Origin: an uncultured Bacteroidales bacterium | GTDB taxonomy: Bacteria; Bacteroidota; Bacteroidia; Bacteroidales; Bacteroidaceae | Direction: 5' to 3' | DNA length: 64,000 bases | Assembly (NCBI GenBank): GCA_902763865.1 | Contig: CACWTR010000004.1 | Span: 1-64,000 of the forward strand | Shown here: piece after piece, positions 8,021-59,509 of the stretch | Position numbering within the stretch: position 1 is the first letter of the stretch | Layout: every line of letters begins with the position of its first letter | The notes under the pieces: generated by a model | Told to the model about the DNA's origin: nothing | What the model saw: only the letters and a program-made list of their open reading frames with translations | The model's database searches: none | Made by a program: the position numbers and the translations under genes

Positions 8021-9062
8021 AATCGACAATACATTCGGCATAGAGGCGGAAGCTCTTGCCTTCGTCTCGTACAGCTCCGAGGCAGCTTTGCGCGAGGAGC
8101 TTGTCCGTATCCATGAGCAGTATGCAGGCTTGCCAATCCTTCACGTCGGCTGCTGCAGCAACCTCCTTTTCCTTGACGACTTCGAAGGCATCGTTCTCCG
8201 GTCTGCCATCAAAGGCTTTCGCCTGACGGCAGAGACGGACGACGAAGTACTGGTAGAGGTCGGTTCCGGAGAGATTTGCGACGACTTTATTGCCGAGGCC
8301 ATAAGTCGCGGCTGGTACGGAATGGAGAACCTGTCGCTCATTCCCGGGCAGGTCGGAGCCGCTGCGGTGCAGAACATCGGAGCCTATGGCGTGGAGGCCT
8401 GCGACGTCATCGAAGAGGTCCGCGGAATCAGTCTGTCCGACGGACAGGAACGGACGTGGAAACGTGCCGACTGCGGCTACGGCTACCGCAAGAGCATCTT
8501 CAAGGAGGAACTTTGGTGCAAGTATGCCATTACCCGCGTCACGTTCCGTCTGAGCAAACACTTCGTGCCGAAACTCCAGTACGGCGGTCTCCTCAAGGCC
8601 GTCGGGCAGGCAGGACTCTCGGAAGGCTCAATCACAGCCGCACAGTTGCGCCAGGTCATCATTGACATCCGCCGAGCCAAGTTGCCAGACCCGTCCGTCA
8701 TGGGCAATGCTGGCAGTTTCTTCAAGAATCCCGTCGTTAGCACAGAGAAGGCAGGGCAGCTGCTCTCCGCTTTCCCGGACATGCCGCATTACCCTGCCGA
8801 AGGCGGCGGAACGAAACTTGCTGCCGGATGGCTGATTGAGCAGGCCGGCTGGAAAGGCAAGAGCCTTGGCCCCGCCGCAGTTCACGACCGTCAGGCTCTT
8901 GTCCTCGTCAACAAGGGCGGTGCCTCAGGCCGCGACGTCATGAAGCTTTGCAATGCCATCAGGAAAGACGTGGCTGACCGCTTCGGAATAGAGCTGGAGC
9001 CGGAAGTGAACGTGATAGGTTCGTTGCTTCATCGCGATGAAGCAATTGCTTCATCGCGATGA
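8010..9062 (+). CDS. murB: UDP-N-acetylenolpyruvoylglucosamine reductase with repeat-derived C-terminus
   Basis: FAD enzyme that reduces UDP-GlcNAc-enolpyruvate to UDP-MurNAc in peptidoglycan synthesis. The 350-residue product begins MRTKIDNTFGIEAEA at the ATG 8010; an ATG at 7908 in the same frame would sit inside the lipoprotein gene and is rejected. The FAD-binding half shows LHVGCCSNLLF and LIPGQVGAAAVQNIGAYG; the catalytic Ser is in GNAGSFFKNP and the Glu in ELEPEVN. Length fits the type I enzyme. The last 13 or so residues (SLLHRDEAIASSR) and the stop codon come from a palindromic repeat element at 9024-9111, so the native end after EPEVNVIG was replaced or extended by repeat insertion. 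Confidence 0.95.
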   Translation: MRTKIDNTFGIEAEALAFVSYSSEAALREELVRIHEQYAGLPILHVGCCSNLLFLDDFEGIVLRSAIKGFRLTAETDDEVLVEVGSGEICDDFIAEAISRGWYGMENLSLIPGQVGAAAVQNIGAYGVEACDVIEEVRGISLSDGQERTWKRADCGYGYRKSIFKEELWCKYAITRVTFRLSKHFVPKLQYGGLLKAVGQAGLSEGSITAAQLRQVIIDIRRAKLPDPSVMGNAGSFFKNPVVSTEKAGQLLSAFPDMPHYPAEGGGTKLAAGWLIEQAGWKGKSLGPAAVHDRQALVLVNKGGASGRDVMKLCNAIRKDVADRFGIELEPEVNVIGSLLHRDEAIASSR

Positions 9063-9111
9063 AGCAATTGCATCTACATGTACGTGCAATCACTCCATCG
9101 CGATGAAGCAA
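9024..9111 (+). repeat. 88-bp four-module palindromic element, copy A
   Basis: Four contiguous 22-bp modules: 9024-9045 and 9046-9067 are perfect palindromes (half-site TTGCTTCATCG), 9068-9089 has a TACATGTA core, and 9090-9111 starts TCAC instead of TTGC. The first two modules encode the end of MurB. Both flanks (GATAGGTTCG on the left, TCAACACGTCGCG on the right) match those of copy D at 59422. Confidence 0.9.
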
Positions 9112-9166
9112 TCAACACGTCGCGTCGCATCAAGCTCAGGAAACTTAAAAATTAAAAGGAAATACA

Positions 9167-9928
9167 ATGAAAGTCTCTTTTCTTGGAACAGGCACCAGCA
9201 TAGGAGTGCCGCAAATCGGTTGCAACTGCGAGGTCTGCACGAGCCGGGACCCGCGTGACCGTCGCCTGCGTGCATCGGCGCTCTTCGAGGAGGGCGATAC
9301 GCGCCTTCTGCTCGACTGCGGGCCTGACTTCCGCGAACAGATGCTACGCATCGGCATGTCCGAACCGCTGGATGCCGTGCTTATCACGCATGAACACTAT
9401 GACCACGTAGGCGGCATCGACGACCTGCGACCCTTCACCTTCGAGTCCGACCTGCCTCTGTATGCCGACGACTATGCCTGCAAGCACTTGCGGCAACGGC
9501 TTCCCTATTGCCTGGTGAACCACAGCTATCCGGGCATTCCCAAGCTCACCTTGCACGAAATAAAGGAAGGTGACCGCCTACAGTTCGGCCCGCTCCGGGT
9601 GACAGCCCTTCGCGTCATGCACGGCGAACTGCCCATCCTGGGGTACCGGATAGGCGATGTGGCCTATCTCACGGATATGACTGAGTTGCTTCCTTCTTCG
9701 CTGCCTTTGCTCGAGGGAATCAAGTTGCTCATCATCGGTGCCTTGCGCCATACGCCGCACAAGACGCATCAGACCGTGGAACACGCCATTGCCTTCAGTC
9801 GCAGCCTGGGCGTAGTGCCCACCTACTTCATCCACATGAGTCACCAGGTGGGCCTTCATGCCGTCGAGGAAGAACGGCTTCCCGAGGGCTTCCACTATGC
9901 CTACGACGGACTGGTGCTCGAGGTCTGA
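9167..9928 (+). CDS. PhnP-like metallo-beta-lactamase-fold hydrolase
   Basis: 253-residue MBL-fold phosphodiesterase. The N-terminus MKVSFLGTGTSIGVPQIGCNC, with Cys pair CNCEVC, and the metal motif THEHYDHVGG (HxHxDH) are characteristic of the PhnP/cyclic-phosphodiesterase branch. Further ligands are expected in VMHGELP and YLTDMTE, and the C-terminal His in YFIHMSHQVG. No phosphonate (phn) genes are nearby, so the substrate is open: cyclic phosphates or nucleotides are plausible. It lies 104 bases after murB, separated by repeat copy A, and ends 7 bases from the converging lipoprotein gene. Confidence 0.88.
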   Translation: MKVSFLGTGTSIGVPQIGCNCEVCTSRDPRDRRLRASALFEEGDTRLLLDCGPDFREQMLRIGMSEPLDAVLITHEHYDHVGGIDDLRPFTFESDLPLYADDYACKHLRQRLPYCLVNHSYPGIPKLTLHEIKEGDRLQFGPLRVTALRVMHGELPILGYRIGDVAYLTDMTELLPSSLPLLEGIKLLIIGALRHTPHKTHQTVEHAIAFSRSLGVVPTYFIHMSHQVGLHAVEEERLPEGFHYAYDGLVLEV

Positions 9929-9935
9929 GGCAACT

Positions 9936-10550
9936 TCAGTCTGATACGTTGAACAGGATGTTCCCGGCTGCACCGCCGTCGATGGAGTTGCTTTGGGGAA
10001 CGATGCGTCCGTTGAAGGAAGTGTTTTCTACGATGTTGCCGGTCTCGTAGATAACGCCGTGACCGCTATACATGTAGCGAGCCACGAAGGTTATCGTGTC
10101 GGGCTTGTTGCCGGCTTTCTGGCTTGTGTGTATGGCATTCGCAGGAATGAGAAGGCGACCTACAGGGTCGTCCGCCCCATCGACGTAGCCATCGTAGTTC
10201 GTATGCTGGCGGTATGAGTCCTTGACGTGAACGATGATGTCGTCCGTGGGGTCGTCGTTGTCCTTCGTGTCGAGCGTGTCATAGCAGACGGTCCAATAGT
10301 AGTCGGTTGCATTGATGAGACGTCCGCGAGTCTCCTGGTGGGCAGTGATGTGCACCGAATCGCCGGAAGCCAGCTCGATGGGCCTGCCGCTGATGTAGCC
10401 GGCATGCTGTACGTAGTTGGGATAGCTGCCCGTCTTGTAGGTAAAGCCTCGCCAGGTCGGGCAGTATGACTCGGTGTCCGTCTTGGAGCAGGACAGAAGG
10501 CTGAGCAGGACGATAAGACATGGGATAAGAGTAGAAAATAACTTGTGCAT
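9936..10550 (-). CDS. Small lipoprotein of unknown function
   Basis: 204 residues from the ATG at 10548-10550 (MHKLFSTLIP). A long hydrophobic signal ends in LSLLSC, with the lipidated Cys at residue 21, so the protein should be anchored on a membrane facing the periplasm or outside. The mature part contains many polar and aromatic residues and the segments VHITAHQETRGRL and VARYMYSGHGVIYETG; beta structure is likely. I do not recognise the family. It is the last gene of the nitroreductase-kdsC-maf run (32 bases after maf) and may simply be read through. Confidence 0.75.
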   Translation of the reverse strand: MHKLFSTLIPCLIVLLSLLSCSKTDTESYCPTWRGFTYKTGSYPNYVQHAGYISGRPIELASGDSVHITAHQETRGRLINATDYYWTVCYDTLDTKDNDDPTDDIIVHVKDSYRQHTNYDGYVDGADDPVGRLLIPANAIHTSQKAGNKPDTITFVARYMYSGHGVIYETGNIVENTSFNGRIVPQSNSIDGGAAGNILFNVSD

Positions 10551-10582
10551 AGTAGGTGATTGTGAATTGTGTGAGCAGCGGA

Positions 10583-11146
10583 TTAGATGTAGTTGAGTCT
10601 CTTCAGTTCGGTGTAGAGCCGCTGGACGGGGAGCCCCATCACGTTGAAATAGGAGCCCTCGATAGCGGTGACGCCGATGTAGCCTATCCATTCCTGAATG
10701 CCGTAGGCTCCGGCCTTGTCGAGCGGATGGTAGCAGGTGACGTAATGGTCAATCTCGGCATCGGTGAGATGGGCAAAGGTGACTTGAGAGACGGACGCAA
10801 AGGAGTGCTGTGCGGAGCTTGTGGTTAGCGTGACACCGGTGACGACCTGGTGCGTCTTGCCCGAGAGCTTGCGGAGCATCCGCCTTGCCTCAGCCTCGTC
10901 AGCGGGCTTGCCGAGCACTTCGCCGTCGAGCCATACGATGGTGTCGGCGGTGATGAGCAACTCGTCGGCCCCAATCGTGTAGGCGGCAGCCTTCTCTCGG
11001 CTGATGTACTGTGGAATCTCCTCCATCGGCAACCCGTCGGGATAAGACTCGTCAAGCCCCGGCAGTGTACGCACTTCGTACTGAAGGCCGAGCCCGGAGA
11101 GGAGTTCCCTGCGCCGGGGAGAATTGCTTGCAAGAATAATGTTCAT
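10583..11146 (-). CDS. maf: Maf-family nucleotide pyrophosphatase
   Basis: Cytoplasmic house-cleaning enzyme that hydrolyses non-canonical or methylated nucleoside triphosphates (dTTP/UTP or m7GTP type). 187 residues with the family start IILASNSPRRRELLSGLG and the metal/catalytic block ITADTIVWLDGEVLGKP; QEWIGYIGVTAIEGSYFNVMGLP near the C-terminus is also typical. It lies 4 bases after the KdsC-like gene in one operon. The sequence alone does not settle which nucleotide is preferred. Confidence 0.93.
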   Translation of the reverse strand: MNIILASNSPRRRELLSGLGLQYEVRTLPGLDESYPDGLPMEEIPQYISREKAAAYTIGADELLITADTIVWLDGEVLGKPADEAEARRMLRKLSGKTHQVVTGVTLTTSSAQHSFASVSQVTFAHLTDAEIDHYVTCYHPLDKAGAYGIQEWIGYIGVTAIEGSYFNVMGLPVQRLYTELKRLNYI

Positions 11147-11150
11147 TCCC

Positions 11151-11669
11151 TTACCAACTGAATGCTTCCTTGTTTGCCATCCACTTCCCTTGAGCCTTCA
11201 GGACCTGTTCTATGACGTCGCGGGCACAGCCCTGTCCGCCGTCGATATGGCTGATGTAGGTGCTGATGTCCCTTATCTCCGGAGCAGCGTCGCGGGGGCA
11301 GCAAGGCAGACCTGCCATCTGCATGACCTCGTAGTCGGGGATGTCGTCGCCCATGTATAGCACCTCGTCGGGAGAAAGCTCGTAGGCATCGAGCAGCTTC
11401 TGCATGCTGTCCGTCTTGACGGAACTGCCCAGGAATACGTCCCGGATGCCGAGCCCTTCGTAACGGCGACGGATGGCCTCGTCGCGGGCACCGGTGATGA
11501 TAGCCACGTGGAGCCCTTCGGTAACGGCAAGGCGCAGCGCATAGCCGTCCTTCGTGTTCAGCGAGCGCATGAGCACGCCATCGTTGTTCATCTGGATAGT
11601 CTCAGCACTGAGCACACCATCGACATCGAAGACGAGGGCTCTGATTTTTCGTAGGTCGTAGTTTATCAT
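11151..11669 (-). CDS. KdsC-like HAD phosphatase (KDO-8-phosphate phosphatase)
   Basis: 172-residue C0-type HAD phosphatase, length typical for KdsC, which makes KDO for lipopolysaccharide. Motif I is FDVDGVL (Asp15 nucleophile, Asp17), motif II lies in VAIITGARD, the motif III Lys is in GSSVKTDSM, and motif IV is MGDDIPDYEVM. The lack of a cap domain fits tetrameric KdsC enzymes. It sits between nitroreductase (4 bases upstream) and maf (4 bases downstream). A sialic-acid or heptose phosphatase of the same fold is possible; the short size and GARD/GDDIPD motifs favour KdsC. Confidence 0.85.
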   Translation of the reverse strand: MINYDLRKIRALVFDVDGVLSAETIQMNNDGVLMRSLNTKDGYALRLAVTEGLHVAIITGARDEAIRRRYEGLGIRDVFLGSSVKTDSMQKLLDAYELSPDEVLYMGDDIPDYEVMQMAGLPCCPRDAAPEIRDISTYISHIDGGQGCARDVIEQVLKAQGKWMANKEAFSW

Positions 11670-11673
11670 AGCA

Positions 11674-12195
11674 TCAGCAGTATGTCACGTTATCCCATTT
11701 CAGACGGTCCTCGTTCTGAGGCTTACGTTCCATTCCCTTGTGGCCGACGGCAATCATGCAGACAGCTCTCAGCGGGTCGGAAATGCCGAGCAGGGCTTTG
11801 ACTATCTCTTCCGTAGGGCGACCGTTGGCAGCTTGTCTCTCGCGCACCTGTATCCAGCACGCTCCCAGCCCCATGTCCTCTGCCTGAAGCAGAATGTGAG
11901 TGGCTGCTACGGAGGCATCCTCTATCCAGACATCGCTGACGGACGGGTCTGCCAGCACGACGATAGCCAGCGGAGCCCCCGCCAGGAAGTCGGAACCAAC
12001 CTGCTTGCTCTGGCTCAGGGCAGCGAGCTTCTCCTTGTCCTCCACCACGATGAACTGGTAGCTGTGCAGGCCTTTGCTGCTCGGAGCAATCAAGCCTGCC
12101 CGAAGCAAAAGCCGGATTTCGTCACTGCTCAGCTGTTCGTCCGTAAATTGACGCATGCTGCGTCTCGTCTTAATTAATTCACTGAAGTCTTTCAT
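11674..12195 (-). CDS. Nitroreductase-family flavoprotein
   Basis: 173-residue FMN-dependent NAD(P)H oxidoreductase of the nitroreductase fold. The start FSELIKTRRSMRQFTDEQL holds the FMN phosphate-binding Arg residues, followed by LIAPSSKGLHSYQFIVVED and GLGACWIQVRER (flavin contact). Family members reduce nitro compounds or quinones; the physiological substrate cannot be read from sequence. It is the first gene of the operon with KdsC, Maf and the lipoprotein, with a good promoter 20-50 bases upstream. Confidence 0.88.
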   Translation of the reverse strand: MKDFSELIKTRRSMRQFTDEQLSSDEIRLLLRAGLIAPSSKGLHSYQFIVVEDKEKLAALSQSKQVGSDFLAGAPLAIVVLADPSVSDVWIEDASVAATHILLQAEDMGLGACWIQVRERQAANGRPTEEIVKALLGISDPLRAVCMIAVGHKGMERKPQNEDRLKWDNVTYC

Positions 12196-12215
12196 TCGAT
12201 ACTCTTTTTGCGATG

Positions 12216-12245
12216 CAAAAGTACGACATTTAATTCAGAATTCAA
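12216..12245 (-). promoter_or_regulatory. Bacteroidetes promoter for the nitroreductase operon
   Basis: Minus strand -7 box TACTTTTG (12223-12216) and TTG (12245-12243) with 19 bases between; start codon about 20 bases downstream. Confidence 0.7.
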
Positions 12246-12270
12246 AATTAAACGAATCAAAATACAAAGA

Positions 12271-12305
12271 AGCCGCCCGAGTGTGTACTCGTGCGGCTCG
12301 TTTTT
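12271..12305. terminator. Hairpin after the FadL-type gene
   Basis: Twelve-base stem AGCCGCCCGAGT (12271-12282) / ACTCGTGCGGCT (12287-12298) with one mismatch and a GTGT loop. Thymine runs follow on both strands (CGTTTTTCTT to the right; TTCTTTGTATTTTG leftwards). It lies downstream of the minus-strand porin gene. Confidence 0.75.
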
Positions 12306-12333
12306 CTTCTTCCAGCCGAAAGACGGAAACCTA

Positions 12334-13791: not shown

Positions 13792-13819
13792 TTAACTAAA
13801 ATTTGGTTAAAATCGGTTG

Positions 13820-13850
13820 CAAAGGTAACACTATTCTACCTTTTGTGCAA
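13820..13850 (-). promoter_or_regulatory. Bacteroidetes promoter for the FadL-type gene
   Basis: Minus strand -7 box TACCTTTG (13827-13820) and TTG (13850-13848), spacing 20. The start codon is 28 bases downstream. Confidence 0.7.
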
Positions 13851-13896
13851 GTTTTTCAAAAGAAAATGCACACAAAACCCATAGTTTGTGCAAGGT

Positions 13897-16765: not shown

Positions 16766-17299
16766 ATGAAGAGAATTATCGTCATATTCCTGATTCTTGC
16801 CTTGGGCACCACGCTCCGTGTCCGGGCGCAAAAGGTGGAGACATTGGTCGGGGACGCATGGGCAGAGATTCCGGCCCTCCAGACGCAAAGCGAGTTGAAA
16901 CCGGGCTGGAAGATAGTGGATTACCAGATGAAGAGCAAGCTGATACACTACCTGTCGGGAGGGCGTGCCACGCAGCTGGCGGACGGTGACCGCCCCGCCT
17001 TCCGCATCACTCCGGGCGAGGAGGAAGTCCTGGTGGATTACGTCGTCATCCGCCTGAAAGCCGCCAAGTACTACCGCAAGATACCGAAGGCCCGACTGAT
17101 GGACAACGACTATATGCGCCTCGAACCCAGTCATTTCGACATCAAGGCTGAAAACGATGCTTTCATCTGTCGTCCCCTTCAGCCCTTCAAGGCGGGAGAG
17201 TATATTCTGGTCAGCCTGTCGCAGTCCCCCATCGGTGAGCTCCAGGACCTGCTCGTCTATCCGTTCTCCGTCATACAGGACGCGAGCCGTCGGCCATAA
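16766..17299 (+). CDS. Exported protein of unknown function ending in a tandem repeat
   Basis: 177 residues with a cleavable signal peptide (MKRIIVIFLILALGTTLRVRAQ). The mature part, LVGDAWAEIPALQTQSELKPGW to YPFSVIQDASRRP, is about 155 residues of mixed beta-like sequence without a motif I know. No membrane segment beyond the signal. The stop codon TAA lies inside the first unit of the 22-bp tandem repeat (17283-17458), so the last five residues are repeat-encoded and the original C-terminus may have been altered by the repeat. It stands alone between the antiporter and the repeat/transposase patch. Confidence 0.7.
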   Translation: MKRIIVIFLILALGTTLRVRAQKVETLVGDAWAEIPALQTQSELKPGWKIVDYQMKSKLIHYLSGGRATQLADGDRPAFRITPGEEEVLVDYVVIRLKAAKYYRKIPKARLMDNDYMRLEPSHFDIKAENDAFICRPLQPFKAGEYILVSLSQSPIGELQDLLVYPFSVIQDASRRP

Positions 17300-17458
17300 G
17301 CTCACGAGTCATCGGCCATAAGCTCACGAGCCGTTGGCCATAAGCTCACGAGTCATCGGCCATAAGCTCACGAGCCGTCGGCCATAAGCTCACGAGTCGT
17401 TGGCCATAAGGACGTGAGTCATCGGCCATAAGCTCACGAGTCGTTGACCATAAGGACA
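17283..17458. repeat. 22-bp tandem repeat, eight units
   Basis: Eight direct units of exactly 22 bp with core CGGCCATAAGCTCA. Units alternate between two variants at the left (CGAGCCGT and CGAGTCAT); the last three diverge, two of them ending GGACG or GGACA. It begins within the last codons of the preceding gene. There are no unique spacers, so it is not a CRISPR array. Confidence 0.95.
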
Positions 17459-17636
17459 AAGTTGCATTCGTTGCATCATGAATTTCCTCGAGTTCACGAT
17501 AAATTAAAATGATTATCCGCAATTGTACCACCATTCATTAGCTTTCGTAACTGCCCTGAAAGGGCTGTAAGCTTATAGCCCAGGGCATCGCCCTGGGTAA
17601 TTGGGATGGAGGCATCCGCCCTAAAAGGGCAAAAGC
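17300..17636. other. Gene-free stretch: tandem repeat and left REP repeat
   Basis: Holds the rest of the 22-bp tandem repeat, about 90 AT-rich bases with no visible gene, and the left REP-like repeat of the transposase locus. An open frame on the minus strand through the repeats translates to repeated LMADDS and is not a gene. Confidence 0.8.
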
Positions 17637-17640
17637 TCAG
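17553..17640 (+). repeat. REP-like repeat, left copy
   Basis: Palindromes GCCCTGAAAGGGC (17553-17565), CCCAGGGCATCGCCCTGGG (17579-17597) and GCCCTAAAAGGGC (17618-17630), ending AAAAGCTCAG. The transposase stop codon (TGA, minus strand, 17639-17637) lies inside the copy. Confidence 0.85.
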
Positions 17641-18092
17641 TCTGCAAATATATACCGCTCGTCATATTCGACGTTGTACAATTTCAAAAACTGAATATAT
17701 TCATCGTGGAACGTCACCTTTTTATGATGTTCAACTTGATTTGAAACGTAGGCAACCGTCTTGTCAACTACCGACTGGCTAACTGAAAACGCAGCATAGC
17801 CACCTTGCCATGCAAAGCGGCTATATCCATCATCGACCGTCTTTATCCATCTGCTGCTGTTGCGTTTCACTTCTTCGATGAGATGTGCTACATTCTCATT
17901 TTTCGACAACAGGCAAACAATATGTATATGGTCACCAACACCACCAACACGAATCACTTGGCAACCCGTGGAGTTGACCAACTGACCGACATAGCTATGT
18001 ACGCGGTCTATGTGTTCGCTGGCTATTTGCGGACCTGTGGCCTTTACATGGAAGATGATGTGCAGATATATTTTGCAAAGAGATTGTGGCAT
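17637..18092 (-). CDS. REP-associated tyrosine transposase (Y1/HUH, IS200-like)
   Basis: 151-residue single-strand DNA transposase of the IS200/REP-associated family. It shows the HUH metal motif in GDHIHIVC (His55, His57) and the expected catalytic Tyr115 in AYVSNQVEHH. The segment FAWQGGYAAFSVSQS is a hallmark of REP-associated transposases as opposed to IS200 TnpA. Length is complete for the family and no frameshift is seen, so the enzyme could be active. Its start lies 17 bases from the inverted REP block and its stop touches the left repeat. Such enzymes are usually domesticated single-copy genes that spread short palindromes around the chromosome. Confidence 0.9.
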   Translation of the reverse strand: MPQSLCKIYLHIIFHVKATGPQIASEHIDRVHSYVGQLVNSTGCQVIRVGGVGDHIHIVCLLSKNENVAHLIEEVKRNSSRWIKTVDDGYSRFAWQGGYAAFSVSQSVVDKTVAYVSNQVEHHKKVTFHDEYIQFLKLYNVEYDERYIFAD

Positions 18093-27911: not shown

Positions 27912-28844
27912 TTAGAGTTTTACGGCAGGCCATCCGAAGTCTTTGTAGTAGCCGACGTTGAGCCCTTTGCTGCTTATGTACTGGCGCAGTTGTTCCTGGC
28001 GGACGGCTTCGCTGACGTCCTGATTGGAGTGCATGTACTGGTAGAGATCGTAGTGTTGTCCGAAGATGCGCTTGGCGCTTGCCTCGTAGCCCGCCCCGTC
28101 TGTTGTCTGCTCGAATTCTGTCACGACGTAAGAGCCGTCCTTCTTGTTCAGGGTCATGCGTCCGGAGTGGTTGCCGCCGGAAACGGTGACGAGTGTGTCG
28201 CCCGAGATGTTGTACCAGAAGATCCAGAAGTCGCCCCACACGTTTGCCGGAAGGGACTCTCTCTCGTCCTCGGCCACCATCATCAGGGACGGTATGCAGA
28301 GCTCGCCTTGCAGGTATCCGCTTCCGATTTCCTTCACGAGATAGTCGCTGACGGCATTGCGGACAGCCTGTTCGTCGCGGTTCAGGGCGATGTGGCGGAT
28401 GCAGTCCGCTTTGTGGCCGTCAAAGTCGGACATCAGCCACTGTCCGCCTACCTTCTCCATGCAGAGAAGGTGCTCTTCCGCTTCGTCTTCTTGGGCGATG
28501 GACCCGTCTTCCCATGCTTGCTGCACCCGGATGGTTGCCTGGGCGTGTGTCCGGTCCGTCTGTTCCACGCTTACGACTTCATAAACGGGTATCGTCCCTG
28601 CGTTGCCGGTCACGAAGTAATGGAGCCATTCGTGGTCCATCGCCTCGAGCTCGGGCAGACGGTTGAACATCGTGTCGAGGACGGCGTAGAAGTCTTCCGT
28701 CATGTATGGTCTCGACTCTTCGCGCAGGACGTGGTCGGGAACATATCGGCACAGTTCTGCCGCGCGCTCGCGCAGCATTTCTTCATTGTTGCCGCAGGAG
28801 GCCAGCAGCAGCAATGTCAGTGTGTAGCTAAGGAATCTTCTCAT
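27912..28844 (-). CDS. Lipoprotein of unknown function
   Basis: 310-residue lipoprotein; the signal ends in LLLASC with the lipidated Cys at residue 17. The mature part has two similar-looking halves, a possible NTF2-like or DUF3828-type fold around EWLHYFVTGNAGTIPVYEVVSVEQ, and DFWIFWYNISGDTLVTVSGGNHSGRM near 210-235. I do not recognise the family with confidence. It opens the second part of the carbohydrate cluster, after repeat copy B, and precedes the phosphoesterase by 19 bases. No catalytic residues are evident. Confidence 0.7.
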   Translation of the reverse strand: MRRFLSYTLTLLLLASCGNNEEMLRERAAELCRYVPDHVLREESRPYMTEDFYAVLDTMFNRLPELEAMDHEWLHYFVTGNAGTIPVYEVVSVEQTDRTHAQATIRVQQAWEDGSIAQEDEAEEHLLCMEKVGGQWLMSDFDGHKADCIRHIALNRDEQAVRNAVSDYLVKEIGSGYLQGELCIPSLMMVAEDERESLPANVWGDFWIFWYNISGDTLVTVSGGNHSGRMTLNKKDGSYVVTEFEQTTDGAGYEASAKRIFGQHYDLYQYMHSNQDVSEAVRQEQLRQYISSKGLNVGYYKDFGWPAVKL

Positions 28845-28899
28845 GTGTGTTCTTCTCGTTGTTGAAGTTTGGTGGGGCTATGTGAAACATGATGTGTCC

Positions 28900-28987
28900 G
28901 TTGCTTCATCGTGAACAAGCAATTGCACATACATGTATGTGCAATTGCATCTACATGTATGTGCAATTGCTCCATCGCGATGAAGCA
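28900..28987 (+). repeat. 88-bp four-module palindromic element, copy B
   Basis: Four contiguous 22-bp modules: imperfect TTGCTTCATCG type (GTGAACAAGC right half), perfect palindrome with half-site TTGCACATACA, a TTGCATCTACA variant, and TTGCTCCATCG type. It lies between the GH2 gene at 29007 and the lipoprotein at 28844, both on the minus strand. Confidence 0.9.
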
Positions 28988-29006
28988 ATGAACCCGACGT
29001 GGGGAC

Positions 29007-31220
29007 TCATAGCTTGACATGCGCTGTCTTCAGTCCTTTGCCTTGAACCGTGACGGTTACTCGTCCCTTCCCTCCGGTGCTCCTGACGACCAGAAGGGCT
29101 CGTCCCTTCCAGGCCTTGTGGCTTGCATCAGAGTAGCGGTCGCAGTCCTTGATGTCGGCATTGCCGAAGGCGGCAAGGACGGCGGGGCCGCTGACGGAGG
29201 CAGTCAGCTCGTTGTCGGCAGTAGGATTCAGCGTGCCCTTGGCGTCGGTCAGTTCCACGGTAATGAACGCCAGGTCCTGACCATCGGCTTTTAGCGCCGT
29301 GCGGTCTGCCTTGAGGCGGATAGTACGTGCCGGCCCTGCGGTTTGCAGGGTGACAGCTTCCTGGCCTCCCTCCGCGCGAAGCGTACCGGGCTGATAGGGT
29401 AGGGTGAAGGTAGCCATGCATTTGGCCGTTTCTTTCTCGCCGATGAGTTGGTCGTTGAGGTAGAGACGTACCCGCGGATAATGCGAATAGACTTCGACTT
29501 CGATGTCCTTGCCTTCATGCCCGGGCCAGTTCCAGCTCTCGAAGGTGGGCCACGTGCTCCACATCGTCGTCTTTACGGTTCCGTAGAAGCCGTCCGGCTC
29601 GCGCACTGCCATGTAGAGGTGTTCGCCCTCCTTGTTCCAAAGCATCGAGCGGTAGTGGCTTACTGGTTTGCGCTGTCCGATGAGGTCGATGTCGCCGCAA
29701 TAGGAAGCGTGCCAGGGGAACAGGAGATTCACCCAATGCTCGTTTGGCACGTCGCCCTCGTAGTAGTAGCGTCCGATGCCCGACTCGCCGAGATAGTCGA
29801 TGGCGGTCCACACGAAGTCACCAATGACCCAAGGCTCACTCGCCACCTTCTGGTAGTTGTTCCATGCATCGCGGGGAAAGCTTTCGGTCTGCATCATCAC
29901 GCGTTCCGGCACGCGCTCGTGGTCGCCCTGCGACTTGTGGATCATGTAGTTGTAGCCCACTATGTCGTGCTCGGCAGCCAGCGGGTCGTAGATGTCCCAA
30001 TCCTGGTCCCAGGCACAGAGAGCCGAGGTGACAGGACGGTGTTGCGGGTCGAGCTGACGGCAGAGCTTGCTCAGCCTGTGGGCAGTTCTCACCACCTCGA
30101 TCTTCTTTCGCTCGATGACTTCGTTACCTGTTGACCAGCAGAAGATGCTGGGATGGTTGCGGTCTCGCAGCACCATTGCCTTGAGGTCCTCTTCCCACCA
30201 TTGGTCGAAGAGCACAGAGTAGTCGAAGTCGTTCTTCTTCTCGCGCCATCCGTCGAATGCCTCGTCGATGACCAGCAGGCCCAGCTCGTCGCATGCACGC
30301 AAGAAAGTCTCCGAGGGCGGGTTGTGCGAGGTGCGGACAGCATTGAAGCCAGCCTCCTTCAGCAGCCGGACGCGCCGGAACTCGGCAGCATCAAAGGCCG
30401 CTGCACCCAGGATGCTGTTGTCGTGGTGCACACAGCCTCCGTTGAGCACGATGGGCTTGCCGTTCAGGAGCAGTCCCTTCGCGGCAGAGTACTCGATGGT
30501 TCGTATGCCATAGGTCACAGGCACGGTATCGCCCTCTGCCTCTATCGTTGCGTGGTAGAGGTAGGGGTCGTCGGGCGACCACAGGTGAGGTTGGCTCACG
30601 TCGATGTGTTTGGATACGGTCCTGCGCGAGCCGTCGGCCTGTATCACGTCGGCCTGTATCTCGACGTTGTGGATGTCGGGAGTGGTGACGTTGACGCTCC
30701 ACTCGTCGATATAGCTTTTCCCTGTCGTCAGCAGCCAGACGTGACGATATATGCCCGAGCCGCTGTACCAACGGCAATTCTTCTGCTGCGAATTATCTAC
30801 GGAAACCTCCACAATGTTGTTGCCAGCCTTGGCGTAGGGCGTGATGTTCACGAAGAACGGGGTGTAGCCATACGGATGTCCGCCGGCCTTATGTCCGTTG
30901 ACATATACCTCGGCATTCATATAGACGCCCTCGAAGTAGAGGCGAAGCGTCTTCTCCCTGGCCTCCGAGTCATCCAGCCGGAACTCCTTCCTGTACCAAC
31001 CCTTTCCGGTAGGCAGGTATGCACCGTCGTTGCCGGCAGGTGCCTCCTTGTCGAAGTCGCCCTCTATGCTCCAGTCATGGGGCAGGTTCACTGTCTGCCA
31101 CTGAATGCTGTCACGTGAAAAACTCCAGTCGCTGTCGAACAGCTGCTTTCTCTCCGGCGTGGCCGCCATCATGCAGCCCATGCCTGTCAGGGCTGCAACA
31201 AAAAGAATCATGCGTCGCAT
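29007..31220 (-). CDS. GH2 family glycosidase, exported
   Basis: 737-residue GH2 enzyme from the ATG at 31218-31220 (MRRMILFVAALTG), with a signal peptide; an ATG at 31262 would overlap the preceding gene. Sugar-binding domain about 25-170, Ig-like about 175-265, TIM barrel about 270-540, then a C-terminal DUF4982/Ig-like part. The acid/base is Glu367 in WSTGNEVIER; the nucleophile is probably Glu446 in MMQTESFP; FVWTAIDYLGESG closes the barrel. Substrate may be beta-galactoside or beta-glucuronide-like; the sequence alone does not decide. It begins 7 bases after the DUF1349 gene. Confidence 0.92.
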   Translation of the reverse strand: MRRMILFVAALTGMGCMMAATPERKQLFDSDWSFSRDSIQWQTVNLPHDWSIEGDFDKEAPAGNDGAYLPTGKGWYRKEFRLDDSEAREKTLRLYFEGVYMNAEVYVNGHKAGGHPYGYTPFFVNITPYAKAGNNIVEVSVDNSQQKNCRWYSGSGIYRHVWLLTTGKSYIDEWSVNVTTPDIHNVEIQADVIQADGSRRTVSKHIDVSQPHLWSPDDPYLYHATIEAEGDTVPVTYGIRTIEYSAAKGLLLNGKPIVLNGGCVHHDNSILGAAAFDAAEFRRVRLLKEAGFNAVRTSHNPPSETFLRACDELGLLVIDEAFDGWREKKNDFDYSVLFDQWWEEDLKAMVLRDRNHPSIFCWSTGNEVIERKKIEVVRTAHRLSKLCRQLDPQHRPVTSALCAWDQDWDIYDPLAAEHDIVGYNYMIHKSQGDHERVPERVMMQTESFPRDAWNNYQKVASEPWVIGDFVWTAIDYLGESGIGRYYYEGDVPNEHWVNLLFPWHASYCGDIDLIGQRKPVSHYRSMLWNKEGEHLYMAVREPDGFYGTVKTTMWSTWPTFESWNWPGHEGKDIEVEVYSHYPRVRLYLNDQLIGEKETAKCMATFTLPYQPGTLRAEGGQEAVTLQTAGPARTIRLKADRTALKADGQDLAFITVELTDAKGTLNPTADNELTASVSGPAVLAAFGNADIKDCDRYSDASHKAWKGRALLVVRSTGGKGRVTVTVQGKGLKTAHVKL

Positions 31221-36272: not shown

Positions 36273-36357
36273 GAAACACACAGTTTTTTGCTCGCAATGC
36301 TGTCGTTTTCAGCTGAGGACGTCACGAACCGGAAGCGCACACGACGCGTTGTGTCCG

Positions 36358-36445
36358 TTGCTTCATCGTGAATAAGCAATTGCACATACATGTATGTGCA
36401 ATTGCATCTACATGTATGTGCAATCACTCCATCGCGATGAAGCAA
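36358..36445 (+). repeat. 88-bp four-module palindromic element, copy C
   Basis: Same four-module order as copy B: TTGCTTCATCG type, perfect TTGCACATACA palindrome, TTGCATCTACA variant, and a final module starting TCACTCCATCG as in copies A and D. The left flank GTGTCCG is shared with copy B. Confidence 0.9.
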
Positions 36446-36560
36446 CCAATAGGACGCGTGCCTCATCCGGAATCCAAACGTGCGAGCATGTCTTTGCACG
36501 TGGCAGCAGGAGCGCCTCAAAACTTTTTTCAGTATTATCAGCTCTGCACGCCCGAATTAT

Positions 36561-49082: not shown

Positions 49083-49121
49083 TTTCAGCATCCAAAATCC
49101 TTCCCGACGTGTCATAAAACT

Positions 49122-49203
49122 ATTTTCACGTCATGAAAATCTATTTTCATGACGTGAAAATTAATTTTCAAAGCGTGAAAATTGATTTTCAAGCTTTGAA
49201 AAT
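49122..49203. repeat. Array of four 19-bp palindromes at 21-bp period
   Basis: Units at 49122-49140, 49143-49161, 49164-49182 and 49185-49203, each ATTTTCA-N5-TGAAAAT and separated by exactly two bases (CT, TA, TG). Units 1 and 2 differ in their cores, CGTCA and TGACG, and are reverse complements of each other; units 3 and 4 have AAGCG and AGCTT. It lies 40 bases after mazG in a convergent intergenic region. Confidence 0.9.
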
Positions 49204-52164: not shown

Positions 52165-52197
52165 ATTCTGAATGCTTTAGGGGGTAAAAGTGTTGTC

Positions 52198-53301: not shown

Positions 53302-53319
53302 GATGAGAGAATGTGTGCC

Positions 53320-55374: not shown

Positions 55375-55381
55375 TATTATA

Positions 55382-57280
55382 TTATATATATTTTTCCCAT
55401 TCTTCTTCAGCTTGCTTGAGCTGTGTTTTCAGTCGGCCATGTTTTTCGTAGAGCGTCACGTCCTGACTGCCTTCCGGTGTTGACATCTGCTCTTCGAGGA
55501 TGCGGATGGCAGCTTCGAGCTGTGTCACCTTCTCCTCAGCTTCCTGCAGAGCCTTCTCGCGCTTCTTCTGTTCGCGGGCCAGTGCTTTCTGTTCGGCATA
55601 AAGGAGCCCTCCTCCAACCTCTGCCCGAGGAGGGAGGCTTTCGCGGCGGTTCTCCCCTCTGCGCGGAGAGGGGTCCGTGGTGTGGCTATTCAGGTACTCG
55701 TAGATGCCGCCGAGGTGCTCTCGCACTTTACCACCACCGAATTCATAAACCTTTGTGACGAGGCCATCGAGGAACTCGCGGTCGTGGCTCACGACGATGA
55801 CGGTGCCGTCGAAGTCACGTATGGCAGCCTTGAGCACGTCCTTCGAGCGCATGTCGAGATGGTTGGTCGGCTCGTCGAGGATAAGGCAGTTCACCGGTTC
55901 GAGCAGGAGTTTTATCATTGCCAGTCGCGTCCGCTCGCCTCCGGAAAGGAACTTCACCTTCTTGTCTCCGGCTTCACCTCCGAACATGAATGCCCCGAGG
56001 ATGTCGCGGATTCTGAGGCGGATGTCGCCCCGTGCCACACGGTCGATGGTGTCGAAGACAGTCAGTTCCCCGTCGAGCATCTGTGCCTGGTTCTGTGCGA
56101 AGTAACCGATCTGCACGTTGTGGCCCACTTTTAGTTCGCCGTCGAAAGGTATTTCGCCCATGATGCACTTGACGAGTGTTGTCTTACCCTCGCCGTTCCG
56201 TCCGACGAATGCGACCTTTTCGCCTCGCCTGATGGTGAGGTTCACACCTTTGAAGATGCAGTGGTCGCCGTAAGCCTTGCTTACTTCGTTGCAGATGACG
56301 GGGAAGTCACCGCTCCGCATCGAGCACGTGAACTTGAGGTTCAGGGCACTGTTATCGACCTCATCCACTTCGATGGGTACAATCTTTTCCAACTGGCGTA
56401 TTTTCTGCTGGACTTGTATGGCTTTTGTTGCCTGATAGCGGAATCGTTCTATGAACGCCTTTGCATCGGCTATCTCCCTTTGCTGGTTCTCGAGGGCCCT
56501 GAGCTGCTGTTCGCGCCGCTCGGCATGAAGGGTGACGTACTCGTCGTACTTGACTTTGTAGTCGTAGATGCGTCCGCAGGATATTTCTATTGTCCGGTTT
56601 GTTACGTTGTTTATGAATGCCCGGTCGTGGCTGACCAGCACTACGGCAGCGGCACGTGTGGAGAGGAAGTTCTCGAGCCACTGTATGCTTTCTATGTCGA
56701 GATGGTTGGTGGGCTCGTCGAGCAGCAGCACGTCGGGGTGCTGGAGCAGGAGCTTTGCCAGTTCGATGCGCATGCGCCAGCCTCCGCTGAATTCGCTCGT
56801 GGGGCGGTCAAGGTCTTCCCGCTTGAAGCCAAGTCCCTGCAGGGTACGCTCCAGCTCTGCCTGATAGTTCATGCCTCCCATCATCTGTAGTCTTTCGCTC
56901 TGATGGCTGAAGCGCTCCACGAGTTGCATGTATGCTTCGCTTTCATAGTCCGTTCTTTCCGAGAGCTGTGCATTGATGTCTTTCAGCTCGTCCTCCATCT
57001 CGGTGATATGTTCGAAGGCTCGTTCTGCTTCTTCCCTGACGGTTCGCTCGTCGGTGAGCTTCATGACCTGTGGCAGGTAGGCGATGACGGTGTCGCGCGG
57101 GACGCTGACGGTGCCGGCTGTAGGCTGTTGCAGTCCTGCTATGATTTTCAGCATCGTGCTCTTGCCGGCACCGTTCTTGCCGACCAGCGCGATGCGGTCG
57201 TGGTTGTTTATCACGTAGCTGATGTCCGTGAAGAGTGGTTTGGCACTGAATTCAACGCTTAGGTTGTCGATTGATATCAT
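55382..57280 (-). CDS. ABC-F family ATPase with in-frame repeat insertion
   Basis: 632-residue cytoplasmic ABC-F protein: two ATPase modules without membrane segments, working on the ribosome. Module 1 has GKNGAGKST (36-44), SGGWRMRIELAKLL and LLLDEPTNHLD; module 2 has GRNGEGKTT, SGGERTRLAMIKLL and LILDEPTNHLD. The linker carries the PtIM-like helices (about 240-300). After about 530 comes a stretch DPSPRRGENRRESLPPRAEV rich in Arg and Pro, encoded by two hairpin palindromes (55608-55673), then a coiled-coil end (KALAREQKKREKALQEAEEKV). The insertion looks like a repeat landing in the frame. Starts 76 bases after the ProX-like gene. Confidence 0.93.
   Translation of the reverse strand: MISIDNLSVEFSAKPLFTDISYVINNHDRIALVGKNGAGKSTMLKIIAGLQQPTAGTVSVPRDTVIAYLPQVMKLTDERTVREEAERAFEHITEMEDELKDINAQLSERTDYESEAYMQLVERFSHQSERLQMMGGMNYQAELERTLQGLGFKREDLDRPTSEFSGGWRMRIELAKLLLQHPDVLLLDEPTNHLDIESIQWLENFLSTRAAAVVLVSHDRAFINNVTNRTIEISCGRIYDYKVKYDEYVTLHAERREQQLRALENQQREIADAKAFIERFRYQATKAIQVQQKIRQLEKIVPIEVDEVDNSALNLKFTCSMRSGDFPVICNEVSKAYGDHCIFKGVNLTIRRGEKVAFVGRNGEGKTTLVKCIMGEIPFDGELKVGHNVQIGYFAQNQAQMLDGELTVFDTIDRVARGDIRLRIRDILGAFMFGGEAGDKKVKFLSGGERTRLAMIKLLLEPVNCLILDEPTNHLDMRSKDVLKAAIRDFDGTVIVVSHDREFLDGLVTKVYEFGGGKVREHLGGIYEYLNSHTTDPSPRRGENRRESLPPRAEVGGGLLYAEQKALAREQKKREKALQEAEEKVTQLEAAIRILEEQMSTPEGSQDVTLYEKHGRLKTQLKQAEEEWEKYI
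55608..55673. repeat. Palindromic insertion inside the ABC-F gene
   Basis: Two hairpins: CCTCCTC (55608-55614) / GAGGAGG (55627-55633) and CCCCTCT (55654-55660) / AGAGGGG (55667-55673). GC-rich and purine/pyrimidine-biased, unlike the flanking codons; it adds about 25 residues in frame. Confidence 0.65.
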
Positions 57281-57356
57281 AGTGTGAGCCGCTAAAGTTG
57301 TTCGGCTTTCTTCTTATTATATATAATGTGTATGTTGTTTCCGCGTGGAATGCTTC

Positions 57357-57908
57357 TCAATAGAGTTGAATGTATTCGTAGGTGTTGCCGACGGCAGAGA
57401 GGTATCGCTCGAAGTCGTCGAGGGCGATGACGACTGTGCCGCGGCAGTCGTTGGGGTGGAAGGATAGTGTCTTCCTGCTCGGGTCGGGGTAGTTGCTGTC
57501 GTCCAGAAGTGCTGCATCGAGGAAGAGGTGGACGTGGTGCTCCTGGTCGTTGATGAGTCCGAAGGGAGAGACGCTTCCGGGCTCGAGTCCGAGGTATTTC
57601 ATCATCCTTTCGGGCGAGGCGAAGGAGAGTTTGCCGCACGACGGTTTGCCTTGCGCCTGGAGTGCTTGCTTGAGCCGTGCTTCGAGGTCGTGGATGTCGA
57701 GGTCGTGGTCGCAGTGGAAGCAGACGAGATAGTGCTGGTTGCCCTTGTGGTTGCGCATGAAGATGTTCTTGCAGTGGACGGAGCCGTCATCCTTCCACCA
57801 TCGCTTGGCCTCCTCGATGGTCTTGCCTTCGGGATGGTTGTAGCAGGAGAAGGGTATGCCGTGTTCCTTGAGGTAGTTCAATACTTTGTCTTGTCTCTCT
57901 GTAGTCAT
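57357..57908 (-). CDS. ProX/YbaK-type aminoacyl-tRNA editing protein
   Basis: 183 residues from ATG 57908 (MTTERQDKVLNYL); an earlier ATG at 57962 lies in the DUF721 gene. The YbaK fold is seen in HPEGKTIEEAKRWWKDDGSVHCKNIFMRNHKGNQHYLV, LEPGSVSPFGLINDQEHHVHLFLDAALL and SFHPNDCRGTVVIALDDFERYL. The CKNIFMRN and SVSPFGLIND blocks resemble PrdX/ProXp-ala, which clears Ala-tRNA-Pro; the substrate tRNA is inference. Operon member, 16 bases after DUF721. Confidence 0.88.
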   Translation of the reverse strand: MTTERQDKVLNYLKEHGIPFSCYNHPEGKTIEEAKRWWKDDGSVHCKNIFMRNHKGNQHYLVCFHCDHDLDIHDLEARLKQALQAQGKPSCGKLSFASPERMMKYLGLEPGSVSPFGLINDQEHHVHLFLDAALLDDSNYPDPSRKTLSFHPNDCRGTVVIALDDFERYLSAVGNTYEYIQLY

Positions 57909-57924
57909 GTCTTGGTGAGGTTGC

Positions 57925-58215
57925 TTAGTGGAAATTGACATCGCTGATGACGTATGAGCCAACGCTGTCGTTGAGTTTCTTCGCGATACGCTTGTGTTCC
58001 ATCATGAGGTTCTGCCTGAGGGGTGCACTGGCCAGCCTGACGTGCAGCTGTCCGTCGCGGACATAGACCTGTCGGGTGTAGCGGTTGATGGTTTCGCCCA
58101 TGACTTCCGCCCATGCCTGGGTGATGCGGTACTCCAGCAAGGGTGTCTCGAGTCCTTCCTTACGCAGGAATGCCAGCAGGACGTCGCGCATCGGTTGTAC
58201 CTTGGTGTAAATCAT
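57925..58215 (-). CDS. DUF721 protein (DciA-like)
   Basis: 96 residues: MRDVLLAFLRKEGLETPLLEYRITQAWAEVMGETINRYTRQVYVRDGQLHVRL then ASAPLRQNLMMEHKRIAKKLN. This is the DUF721 pattern (helix, W-x-x-V-G, KH-like fold) related to DciA, the loader of the replicative helicase in many bacteria. The overlap with recF (ATGA at 58212-58215) and its position next to a DNA repair gene support a role in DNA replication. The short length is usual in Bacteroidetes. Confidence 0.85.
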   Translation of the reverse strand: MIYTKVQPMRDVLLAFLRKEGLETPLLEYRITQAWAEVMGETINRYTRQVYVRDGQLHVRLASAPLRQNLMMEHKRIAKKLNDSVGSYVISDVNFH

Positions 58216-59309
58216 GAGCTGATGCCTCCCTTCTCCACGATGAATATCTTGCTGTCGCTTCCCGTCGAGGCCAGGATGCCGTCGAGGTGGTCGCGGTTCG
58301 TGTCGGTGATGAAGATTTGCCCGAAGCGGTCTCCGCCCACCAGTTTCACGATTTGTTCCACTCGCTCTGCATCGAGCTTGTCGAAGATGTCGTCGAGCAG
58401 GAGCAGGGGAGTCGTGCGTGAGCCAGTTCTGCAGAGGAAGTCGAACTGGGCCATCTTCAGGGCAATCAGGAATGTTTTGCTTTGTCCCTGCGAGCCTTCG
58501 CGACGTACGGGATAGCCGTTCTGCATCATCTCGAGGTCGTCTTTGTGTATGCCGTGTAGGGTGTAGCCGACGGCTCGGTCCTTGAAGCGCTGGCCGGTGA
58601 GCTGTTCGAGCAGCGGTCCGCGTTGCAGGTGCGAGACGTAGTGCAGTTCGACTTCTTCGTTGCCTGCGGAGATGCGGTTGTAGAACTGCTGGAAGATGGG
58701 GATGAGTTCGGAGATGTATTCACTGCGCTTGCGGAAGATGTACTCCCCTTCGCGCGACATCTGTTCCTCGAAGATGCGGAAGACTTCTGGGTCCGGTTCC
58801 TCGTCCTGCTTCAGCATGACGTTGCGTTGTTGCAGGGCTTTGTTGTAGCGTATCAGCGAGTCCGTGTAGGCGGGGTCGTATTGGCAGATGACCATGTCGA
58901 TGAAGCGTCGCCGCTCCTCGCTGCCGCCCGTCACCAGAATCTGGTCGGCAGGCGACACCATGACGAGGGGAATCAGCCCGATGTGTTCCGAGATGCGGCG
59001 GTAGGCTTTCTTGCCCCGCCTCACCACCTTCTTCTGTCCTGTCTTCAGCCCGATGTGGATGTCTTCGGGGGTGCCGTCCTCGTGCTCGTAGAGACCTTGC
59101 AGGGACATGAACTCACTTCCATGCCTTACGCACAGATGGTCGATGCTGCTGCTGTAGCTGCGGCAAAAGCTCAGGAAGTGGATGGCATCCAGGACGTTTG
59201 TCTTTCCCTGCCCATTCCCGCCGATGAAGCAGTTCAGCTTCGCAGAGAAGTGTAGCTCGGCCTCCGAAATGTTCTTGTAATTGAATATGGTTAGGTCTGT
59301 CAGTCTCAT
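58212..59309 (-). CDS. recF: DNA replication and repair protein RecF
   Basis: 365-residue SMC-like ATPase that helps load RecA at gaps. Start chosen at ATG 59307-59309 (MRLTDLTIFNYKNI), since an ATG at 59330 lies upstream of the promoter box. Walker A GGNGQGKT (30-37) follows the FYKN-type start; the signature QGQSKTFLIALKMAQ, Walker B PLLLLDDIFDKLD and FITDTNRDHLDG are present. The promoter box ends 8 bases before the ATG, so the mRNA may be leaderless. It opens a run of seven closely spaced genes down to the GH16 gene. Confidence 0.95.
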   Translation of the reverse strand: MRLTDLTIFNYKNISEAELHFSAKLNCFIGGNGQGKTNVLDAIHFLSFCRSYSSSIDHLCVRHGSEFMSLQGLYEHEDGTPEDIHIGLKTGQKKVVRRGKKAYRRISEHIGLIPLVMVSPADQILVTGGSEERRRFIDMVICQYDPAYTDSLIRYNKALQQRNVMLKQDEEPDPEVFRIFEEQMSREGEYIFRKRSEYISELIPIFQQFYNRISAGNEEVELHYVSHLQRGPLLEQLTGQRFKDRAVGYTLHGIHKDDLEMMQNGYPVRREGSQGQSKTFLIALKMAQFDFLCRTGSRTTPLLLLDDIFDKLDAERVEQIVKLVGGDRFGQIFITDTNRDHLDGILASTGSDSKIFIVEKGGISS

Positions 59310-59317
59310 TTCAGCTG

Positions 59318-59348
59318 CAAAAGTACACAAAAACGCACAAAACTCAAA
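59318..59348 (-). promoter_or_regulatory. Bacteroidetes promoter for recF cluster
   Basis: Minus strand -7 box TACTTTTG (59325-59318) and -33 TTTG (59348-59345), spacing 19, 8 bases from the recF ATG. Confidence 0.75.
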
Positions 59349-59421
59349 GGAAATCGTCCTTTTTATTTAGAGTTTGAGGGCTTGAAGAAGTTATTCGCCC
59401 CGGCACGTCGCGTCGTGTTGA

Positions 59422-59509
59422 TTGCTTCATCGCGATGGAGTGATTGCACATACATGTAGATGCAATTGCACATACATGTAGATGCAATTGCTTATTCGCG
59501 ATGAAGCAA
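59422..59509 (-). repeat. 88-bp four-module palindromic element, copy D
   Basis: In reverse orientation the order is TTGCTTCATCG type (GCGAATAAGC right half), two TTGCATCTACA modules and the TCACTCCATCG type module. The flanks GATAGGTTCG and TCAACACGACGCG match copy A almost exactly. Confidence 0.9.

Follow-up and report, generated by a model that had tools for sequence, protein, structure and literature searches.

Dispersed arrays of phased, near-palindromic 22-bp modules in Bacteroidaceae genomes: a possible assembly site for a DNA-binding protein

The first 64,000 nucleotides of contig CACWTR010000004.1 (assembly GCA_902763865.1; hereafter the window), from an uncultured Bacteroidales bacterium of the family Bacteroidaceae, contain four copies, A to D, of an array of near-palindromic 22-bp modules (Table 1). 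Contig searches with a half-site and two arrays as queries located 60 such arrays in the genome as a whole (G000; 2,911,041 bases in 75 contigs, 84% complete; other genomes are numbered likewise, and loci carry L numbers). The arrays share an exact phase and a nearly constant frame, their flanks fade outward in the same phase, their cores are homogenised, their positions recur between species of one clade, and successive copies keep a minimum distance from one another. A multi-site protein assembly point best fits the phase, fading flanks, frame constraint, recurring positions and exclusion distance. Our tentative reading, held at a little under even confidence, is that the arrays are sites kept by selection at which an oligomeric DNA-binding protein assembles, probably one that organises the chromosome, with cores homogenised by recombination.

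In the mechanism proposed, a dimeric, sequence-specific DNA-binding protein would occupy each 22-bp module, a length of about two helical turns. The conserved junction and module centre, 11 bp apart, would face one side of the helix, and the three bases between them would not be contacted. Binding would begin on the three strong modules of the core and spread in phase over the weaker flanking modules, with a footprint of perhaps 200 bp. The likely role would be chromosome organisation (tethering, domain borders or the loading of a complex) and not control of a single pathway, because the 60 arrays lie at unrelated intergenic places, more than 5 kb apart in the full censuses. Selection would hold the frame, and recombination, both among the arrays of a genome and between the arms of a single array, would homogenise the cores.

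Module structure, flanks and census

Each module follows the pattern TTGC-N3-x-WCRYGW-x-N3-GCAA and the junctions between modules read GCAATTGC; the two small palindromes, at the junction and at the module centre, alternate every 11 bp. The 22-bp period is exact in all 60 arrays of G000, of which 53 have three modules (66 bp) and seven have four (88 bp). As four of these seven lie in the window, the 88-bp length is a local feature. The initial annotation of the window had described four 88-bp copies, each of four contiguous 22-mers without spacer; this is correct, as are the places it gave for A, C and D, while B was found one base to the right of where it had been put. Its rule that the outer modules always carry the core TCGCGA fails for the left outer module of B and C, which reads TCGTGA. 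The arrays are indeed not CRISPR, since the modules are contiguous and no unique spacers separate the repeats, and the expectation of many copies per genome was borne out by the whole-genome search.

Table 1. Arrays and flanking modules in the window. Modules F1-F3 are assigned to the flanks of A-D as a property of the family, F2-F3 not being testable in a single copy.
Feature	Positions	Strand	Description
Array A	9024..9111	+	Four modules: two TCGCGA, one TACATGTA, right-end module TCACTCCATCGCGATGAAGCAA
Array B	28901..28988	+	Four modules: left core TCGTGA, two TACATGTA, right TCGCGA
Array C	36358..36445	+	Four modules; between divergent glutathione-peroxidase-like gene and GMP-synthase C-domain gene
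Array D	59422..59509	-	Four modules; between divergent SMC/RecF-like N-domain gene and TPR gene
Left flank of A	8958..9023		F1-F3, degenerate in-phase modules
Right flank of A	9112..9177		F1-F3
Left flank of B	28835..28900		F1-F3
Right flank of B	28989..29054		F1-F3
Left flank of C	36292..36357		F1-F3
Right flank of C	36446..36511		F1-F3
Flank of D	59356..59421		F1-F3
Flank of D	59510..59575		F1-F3

The 56 arrays outside the window were taken with up to 2 kb of flank each, and every array was parsed. Within G000 the 14-base half-site TCGCGATGAAGCAA occurs 77 times in forward and 64 times in reverse orientation, against none for its reversed control, a repetition far above the chance level. A two-mismatch pattern gave 71 junction pairs where ~67 were expected from the list (reversed control, 1), indicating that the list of G000 arrays is nearly complete. 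A 110-column profile, built from an alignment of 44 arrays from four species, produced 16 matches in the window at E ≤ 1, every one inside the four arrays and their flanks. In a census of 361 contiguous kb of G000 and 79 kb of G111 the profile recovered precisely the listed arrays; scored with a simple matrix derived from that alignment, these reach 72-117 bits, and no score between 22 and 72 bits occurred in the 440 kb. Outside arrays, no 22-mer matched the module template at 17/22 or better in ~0.28 Mb.

The cores exist in versions proper to each species: TCGCGA and TACATGTA in G000, TACATGTA in the inspected arrays of G111, and almost exclusively TCATGA in those of G120. In G000 the commonest core, 66 bp long, recurs without change at nine loci; seven arrays consist of TACATGTA modules only. 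Four TACATGTA-only arrays of G000 (L107, L126, L143 and L093) have longer asymmetric flanks in common, approximately CTTCGTGCGGCGCACAGCG on one side and CAACAAACACAACGTGGAGTATTGAA on the other, unlike the main class.

On both sides the core is flanked by further modules. F1 shares the centre of the core modules and has TT ahead of two variable bases at its end, and F2 and F3 repeat the centre weakly and in phase. Information content in F1-F5 falls from 15.9 through 1.7, 0.9 and 0.2 to 0.0 bits in G000 (105 flanks), and from 11.1 through 4.3, 2.5 and 0.9 to 0.4 bits in G111 (72 flanks); the G120 values are 14.2, 1.6, 1.5, 1.0 and 1.0 bits, the values at the end of this series being uncertain in a small sample of 26 flanks. 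These modules account for the flank similarity that had been taken as shared in pairs of copies: no long homology was found, only fragments of the degenerate in-phase flanking module common to most copies. Exact WCRYGW chains at period 22, filled in at least four of seven places, have 228 start positions in G000, which sit at 48 of the 60 arrays and at one tandem repeat (17214-17521); there were none at periods 20, 21, 23 or 24, or in one shuffle per period. As expected of an array of cooperative DNA-binding sites, multiple sites stand in phase within a constrained frame.

Tandem repeats outside the arrays were also noted in the window. The repeat at 17283-17454, near a transposase gene, has a period of exactly 22 bp, 7.8 copies of the unit CCATAAGCTCACGAGYCRTYGG and a WCRYGW core; it is possibly a direct-repeat cousin of the arrays, and the core may be due to chance, with 22 phases to choose from. 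AT-rich tandem repeats of ~21 bp occur at 49111-49203 and 59656-59704, the second close to array D. In G111 one array (L320, G111:C5:1-1600) lies within a long perfect inverted repeat at the start of its contig, perhaps an assembly artefact.

Conservation, copying and arm symmetry

In 21 close orthologous array pairs, which share loci, 1001 of 1008 frame positions are identical. The corresponding figures are 3416/3840 for the aligned flanks (biased upward, as only sides with at least 0.80 ungapped identity were counted), 702/924 for F1, and 274/378 for the three-base spacers inside the half-sites (the N3 triplets); in the nine pairs with both flank sides at 0.80 or above, triplets agree at 118 of 162 positions. 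One close pair, 99-100% identical in the flanks, has 3 differences among its 18 triplet positions; another, 90-98% identical there, has none. As judged from these comparisons, selection, or in part copying from array to array, keeps the frame strongly, and the triplets change freely. Across a wider set of 38 pairs, ungapped identity is 0.835 in the core, 0.639 in F1, 0.60-0.61 in F2-F4 and 0.578 beyond, so that this comparison gives no evidence of selection on the outer modules, beyond F1. In the orthologous arrays L154 and L158 (G015 and G003), which lie ~11 bp upstream of the ATG of a gene that looks CTP synthase-like by eye, two half-sites differ by the same triplet change, in parallel.

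The initial annotation held that the copied unit is larger than 88 bp. The copied unit was instead found to be the core: the nine G000 arrays with identical cores differ in their flanks, F1 being 50-51% alike on average and the left F2-F3 26%. Identical cores in differing flanks would fit either recombination between arrays or movement of the core, and the exchange of modules proposed earlier is supported. The main rival explanation, which we consider unlikely, takes up the second alternative: a mobile palindromic element similar to REP (repetitive extragenic palindromic) sequences or to miniature inverted-repeat transposable elements (MITEs), moved by a transposase in trans, in which the mobile unit would be the 66-bp core, the flanks would reflect target preference and the spacing would reflect target immunity conferred by sites that bind the transposase. 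The sharp edges of the nine identical cores agree with this, as do the independence of core polarity from flank polarity (13 versus 11 in the two commonest flank classes, 52 arrays), the strong variation in array copy number between species, the minimum spacing described below and a weak signal of direct repeats in G000 (P=0.025). The signal is absent in G111 (P=0.095) and G120 (P=0.565), and consistent direct repeats, as would be left by target site duplication, were not found. F1, with up to 16 bits per side, holds too much information for random targets, the frame is more conserved than the flanks, and the lack of lone modules in ~0.28 Mb also speaks against mobility. Among non-junction sites in the same ~0.28 Mb that resemble F1-F1 with at most 2/18 mismatches, only L144:747 was found, beside an array. 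Insertion into an empty F1-F1 palindrome was rejected, as allowing up to 3 mismatches adds a handful of scattered sites, little above the 2 shuffled hits. The small mobile element suggested for the window is in part supported, by the nine identical cores in unrelated flanks, and has against it the frequent recurrence of positions between species.

A candidate mobiliser was sought among Y1 transposases, in particular the REP-associated tyrosine transposases (RAYTs). The window encodes a RAYT-like Y1 (IS200-like) transposase (17637-18092, minus strand), matched in 28 of 139 genomes of the genus; by eye, its gene is flanked by palindromes of its own, of the GCCCTGAAAGGGC and CCCAGGGC...GCCCTGGG types. 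As these differ from the arrays, and as 16 of the 63 genomes with arrays and 12 of the 76 others have a homologue, RAYT was rejected as the mobiliser. Among the ten array-richest genomes a homologue is present in G034, G111, G120, G026 and G145 and none was found in G019, G171, G176, G005 and G150, single absences being uncertain in incomplete genomes; with five of ten having a homologue, a link between RAYT and arrays may hold in some species.

In some species the two arms of an array are often mirror copies. In G111 the first module (M1) is the reverse complement of the third (M3) in 39 of 52 arrays, against 13.7 expected (maximum of 2000 shuffles, 21); over all genomes with at least two arrays the count is 57 of 171 against 22.9 (maximum of 2000 shuffles, 36), and in G000 4 of 52 against 4.0. 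Within the middle module, the two halves carry the same triplet in 0/52 arrays of G111, 0/20 of G120, 1/16 of G019, 0/11 of G005 and 1/20 of the pooled small samples, and in 29/52 of G000 (counts without the nine arrays of G026). A perfect 66-bp palindrome was not found among the 180 three-module arrays. By consensus, core and F1 show dyad symmetry, yet a check for terminal inverted repeats showed that the flanking arms of single G000 copies avoid complementarity, the longest inverted match being 4.17 against 5.07 ± 0.23 when permuted; the avoidance is weaker in G111 (4.15 versus 4.59) and absent in G120 (4.30 versus 4.34). The lack of perfect palindromes, taken with this avoidance, indicates that long perfect palindromes are apparently excluded. 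Mirror copying of the arms would fit template switching.

Such symmetry might also be expected of a structural element, a single long hairpin (in a cruciform, in single-stranded DNA or possibly in RNA) whose stem would be the outer modules and whose loop the middle one. When six arrays were folded as single strands, the array ends paired (z-scores of -7.3 to -11.7), and the excess of complementary M1 and M3 modules in the 171 arrays points the same way. We nevertheless regard this explanation as improbable, given the chance level of complementarity in G000, the lack of any perfect palindrome, the lack of covariation of the flanking arms in the five sets tested and their avoidance of complementarity in G000; moreover, arm matching can arise from template switching without function, and 23 of the 60 copies have divergent genes on either side, a setting in which read-through transcription is not expected. 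A long hairpin that includes the flanks was rejected on the same behaviour of the flanking arms. The chain of RNA hairpins that had been offered for the window is weakly supported, given the divergent settings and the six folds, in which the array ends pair and no chain forms.

Chromosomal positions and gene context

Among 189 arrays of 20 genomes, 49 same-position pairs in 23 groups were found where ~9.5 were expected. Positions were called the same if their offsets relative to a homologous gene differed by at most 100 bp; the expectation is a crude one based on 1500 intergenic places, and the pairs are not independent, some resting on short alignments. The excess lies in the clade with TACATGTA cores, where G005 and G111 (11 and 52 loci) share 6 pairs against 0.38 expected, and G026 and G111 (9 and 52 loci) share 5 against 0.31. 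A first comparison had suggested random array positions; with more genomes this was reversed for the one clade and not for G000.

Arrays also keep apart. On the 16 contigs with at least two arrays, the smallest of 29 gaps between successive arrays is 7457 bp, whereas random placements have a median minimum gap of 550 bp and none of 5000 sets reaches 7457 bp; the spread of the gaps is otherwise no more even than random (P=0.16). In the full censuses the minimum gap is 7457 bp in G000 (17 arrays, 361 kb, P=0.004) and 5215 bp in G111 (10 arrays, 79 kb, P=0.0005), both P values being optimistic because the contigs were picked after the spacing had been seen.

According to a home-made codon-score gene caller, none of the 60 arrays lies inside a called gene and two overlap a gene at its 3' end, which extends to the whole genome the earlier remark that copies lie at gene edges. 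Array A overlaps the 3' end of a MurB-like frame (8010-9062) by 39 bp, the stop codon falling within the array, and the array at L111:2001-2066 likewise overlaps a called gene's 3' end by 39 bp with the stop codon inside it. The contexts are tandem in 26 cases, divergent in 23 and convergent in 7, with four arrays at a contig end or without a gene on one side. These classes are not clearly enriched, given that the intervals of at least 90 bp in the window number 16 tandem, 7 divergent and 1 convergent.

Operator sites of a transcription factor regulon would be palindromic and intergenic, as the arrays are, and could explain the 23 divergent versus 7 convergent contexts as well as the recurrence, in some species, of arrays upstream of the same genes. 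This explanation is nonetheless very improbable. Start codons are at least 100 bp away in 63 of 72 cases, and in 20 of the 26 tandem contexts the array lies closer to the upstream stop codon (median distance 46 bp) than to the start codon downstream (168 bp). A minimum spacing is not expected of operators, and the neighbouring genes have no common function: in a Pfam search of the proteins of 112 neighbours, some of them truncated where the locus ends, no function recurred and the top family accounted for 3/112, the outcome being the same for a control set (112 of 117 available proteins).

Of the three roles offered by the initial annotation, an array of protein-binding sites is the one best supported, by the phased flanks, frame conservation, recurring positions and spacing. 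Several observations weigh against an assembly site. No binding protein or candidate gene for one has been identified, and 76 of 139 genomes of the genus gave no profile match, in which case the system is dispensable or is missed by the profile. Recurrence of G000 positions is at most weak: 2 pairs with G111 against 2.08 expected and 4 with G120 against 0.84, two of these on alignments of at most 60 aa (the counts are 2 against 0.36 with G026 and 1 against 0.44 with G005). Simple protein binding requires neither the complementary outer modules of G111 nor its lack of self-complementary middle modules. F2-F4 are barely more conserved than the DNA further out, identity of the frame could come in part from copying between arrays and not from selection at each place, and, with module sequences differing between species, the specificity of the protein would have to drift too.

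Distribution and related systems

The profile matched 63 of 139 genomes of the genus at E ≤ 0.001, G000 included. In an even, order-wide sample of 393 genomes it matched 5; G000 matched strongly and the other four weakly, and by eye (370 bases each inspected) these four look like other tandem repeats or chance. Both scans used strict filters and a limited number of candidates per genome, such that weak members could have been overlooked and the copy numbers are lower bounds. Of 78 named loci obtained by a protein search, one has an array (L214, JAFXZK010000011.1, a Bacteroidaceae metagenome-assembled genome from sheep rumen). A search for empty sites in named genomes, guided by the 894-aa protein next to copies B and C, gave no synteny in the 12 of the 78 loci checked. 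Viral contigs scanned with one 16-mer gave four matching stretches; the 200 bases examined contained no array in any of them. The array-bearing segment of L035 (G045:C17) is 94% identical to that of L121 (G000:C20), other aligned stretches of at least 100 bases being 64-77% identical, as if the segment had been transferred horizontally; the G045 array contains a run of N.

Several known systems invite comparison. BOX elements of the pneumococcus are mosaics of small modules with a variable central copy number, and differ in their modules and fold; they are not known to be phased by helical turns. The centromere sites parC and parS, bound cooperatively by ParR and ParB, are tandem or palindromic, and matS, SBS and Noc sites are dispersed and organise the chromosome; we know of no family of centromere or chromosome-organising sites with at least 60 three-module arrays and variable spacers. 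The ends of Tn7 and Mu contain 22-bp transposase sites and confer target immunity with kilobase-scale exclusion, whereas the arrays show no sharp outer ends or convincing target duplications.

The arrays resemble REP, BIME and REPIN sequences in being short palindromes present in tens of intergenic copies in species-specific versions (PMC3733652). Like REP sequences, which are palindromic (20-40 bp), extragenic and of high copy number, they consist of 22-bp modules in 60 arrays outside called genes. REP elements have been described with GTAG or CGTC tags and as often linked to RAYTs (PMC3733652); neither tag occurs within 4 bases of either core foot in any of the 60 G000 arrays. The arrays further differ from the REP/RAYT system in their fixed 22-bp phase, three to four modules, recurring positions and minimum spacing. 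The nearest described repeats found in Bacteroidales are BrickBuilt and PINSR. BrickBuilt, a MITE of Porphyromonas gingivalis, likewise has spacerless tandem units of about two helical turns (23 nt), with a leader and tail, and is always intergenic, but its units are direct repeats of variable number, with 19 copies in one strain and terminal repeats like those of the IS5 family (PMC4596501); the arrays are near-palindromic 22-mers fixed at three to four, and no such ends were seen. PINSR, a 188-bp repeat of Prevotella intermedia and P. nigrescens with 177-184 intergenic copies and no terminal inverted repeats, is similarly lineage-limited in related bacteria, with about three quarters of its positions common to strains (PMC4755523). 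A modular 22-bp structure does not appear in its description, which was the sole basis of comparison (PMC4755523).

An Rfam search of five loci, all outside the window, gave 66 matches at E ≤ 1, all to miRNA models below the gathering score. No description of the array family was found among the literature records inspected, which largely exclude subscription journals. To our knowledge, no site or repeat family combines phase, recurring positions, exclusion and mirror-copied triplets. It is possible, though on balance doubtful, that the arrays constitute a genus-specific chromosome-organising system, with tens to more than 100 dyad-symmetric, 22-bp-phased arrays per genome, recurring positions, an exclusion of several kb, and a fast-changing, mirror-copied three-base code in a near-invariant frame.

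Dispersed palindromic repeats are often dismissed as selfish debris. The kept frame, the recurring places in one clade and the spacing make it quite plausible that these arrays represent a functional layer of chromosome organisation, apparently undescribed, in the gut bacteria of ruminants, and the arrays themselves are ready bait for finding the protein. The changing triplets in a frozen frame, matched between arms, also offer a direct measure of short-range gene conversion or template switching. If the arrays are instead mobile with target immunity, they would represent a new way for such repeats to spread.

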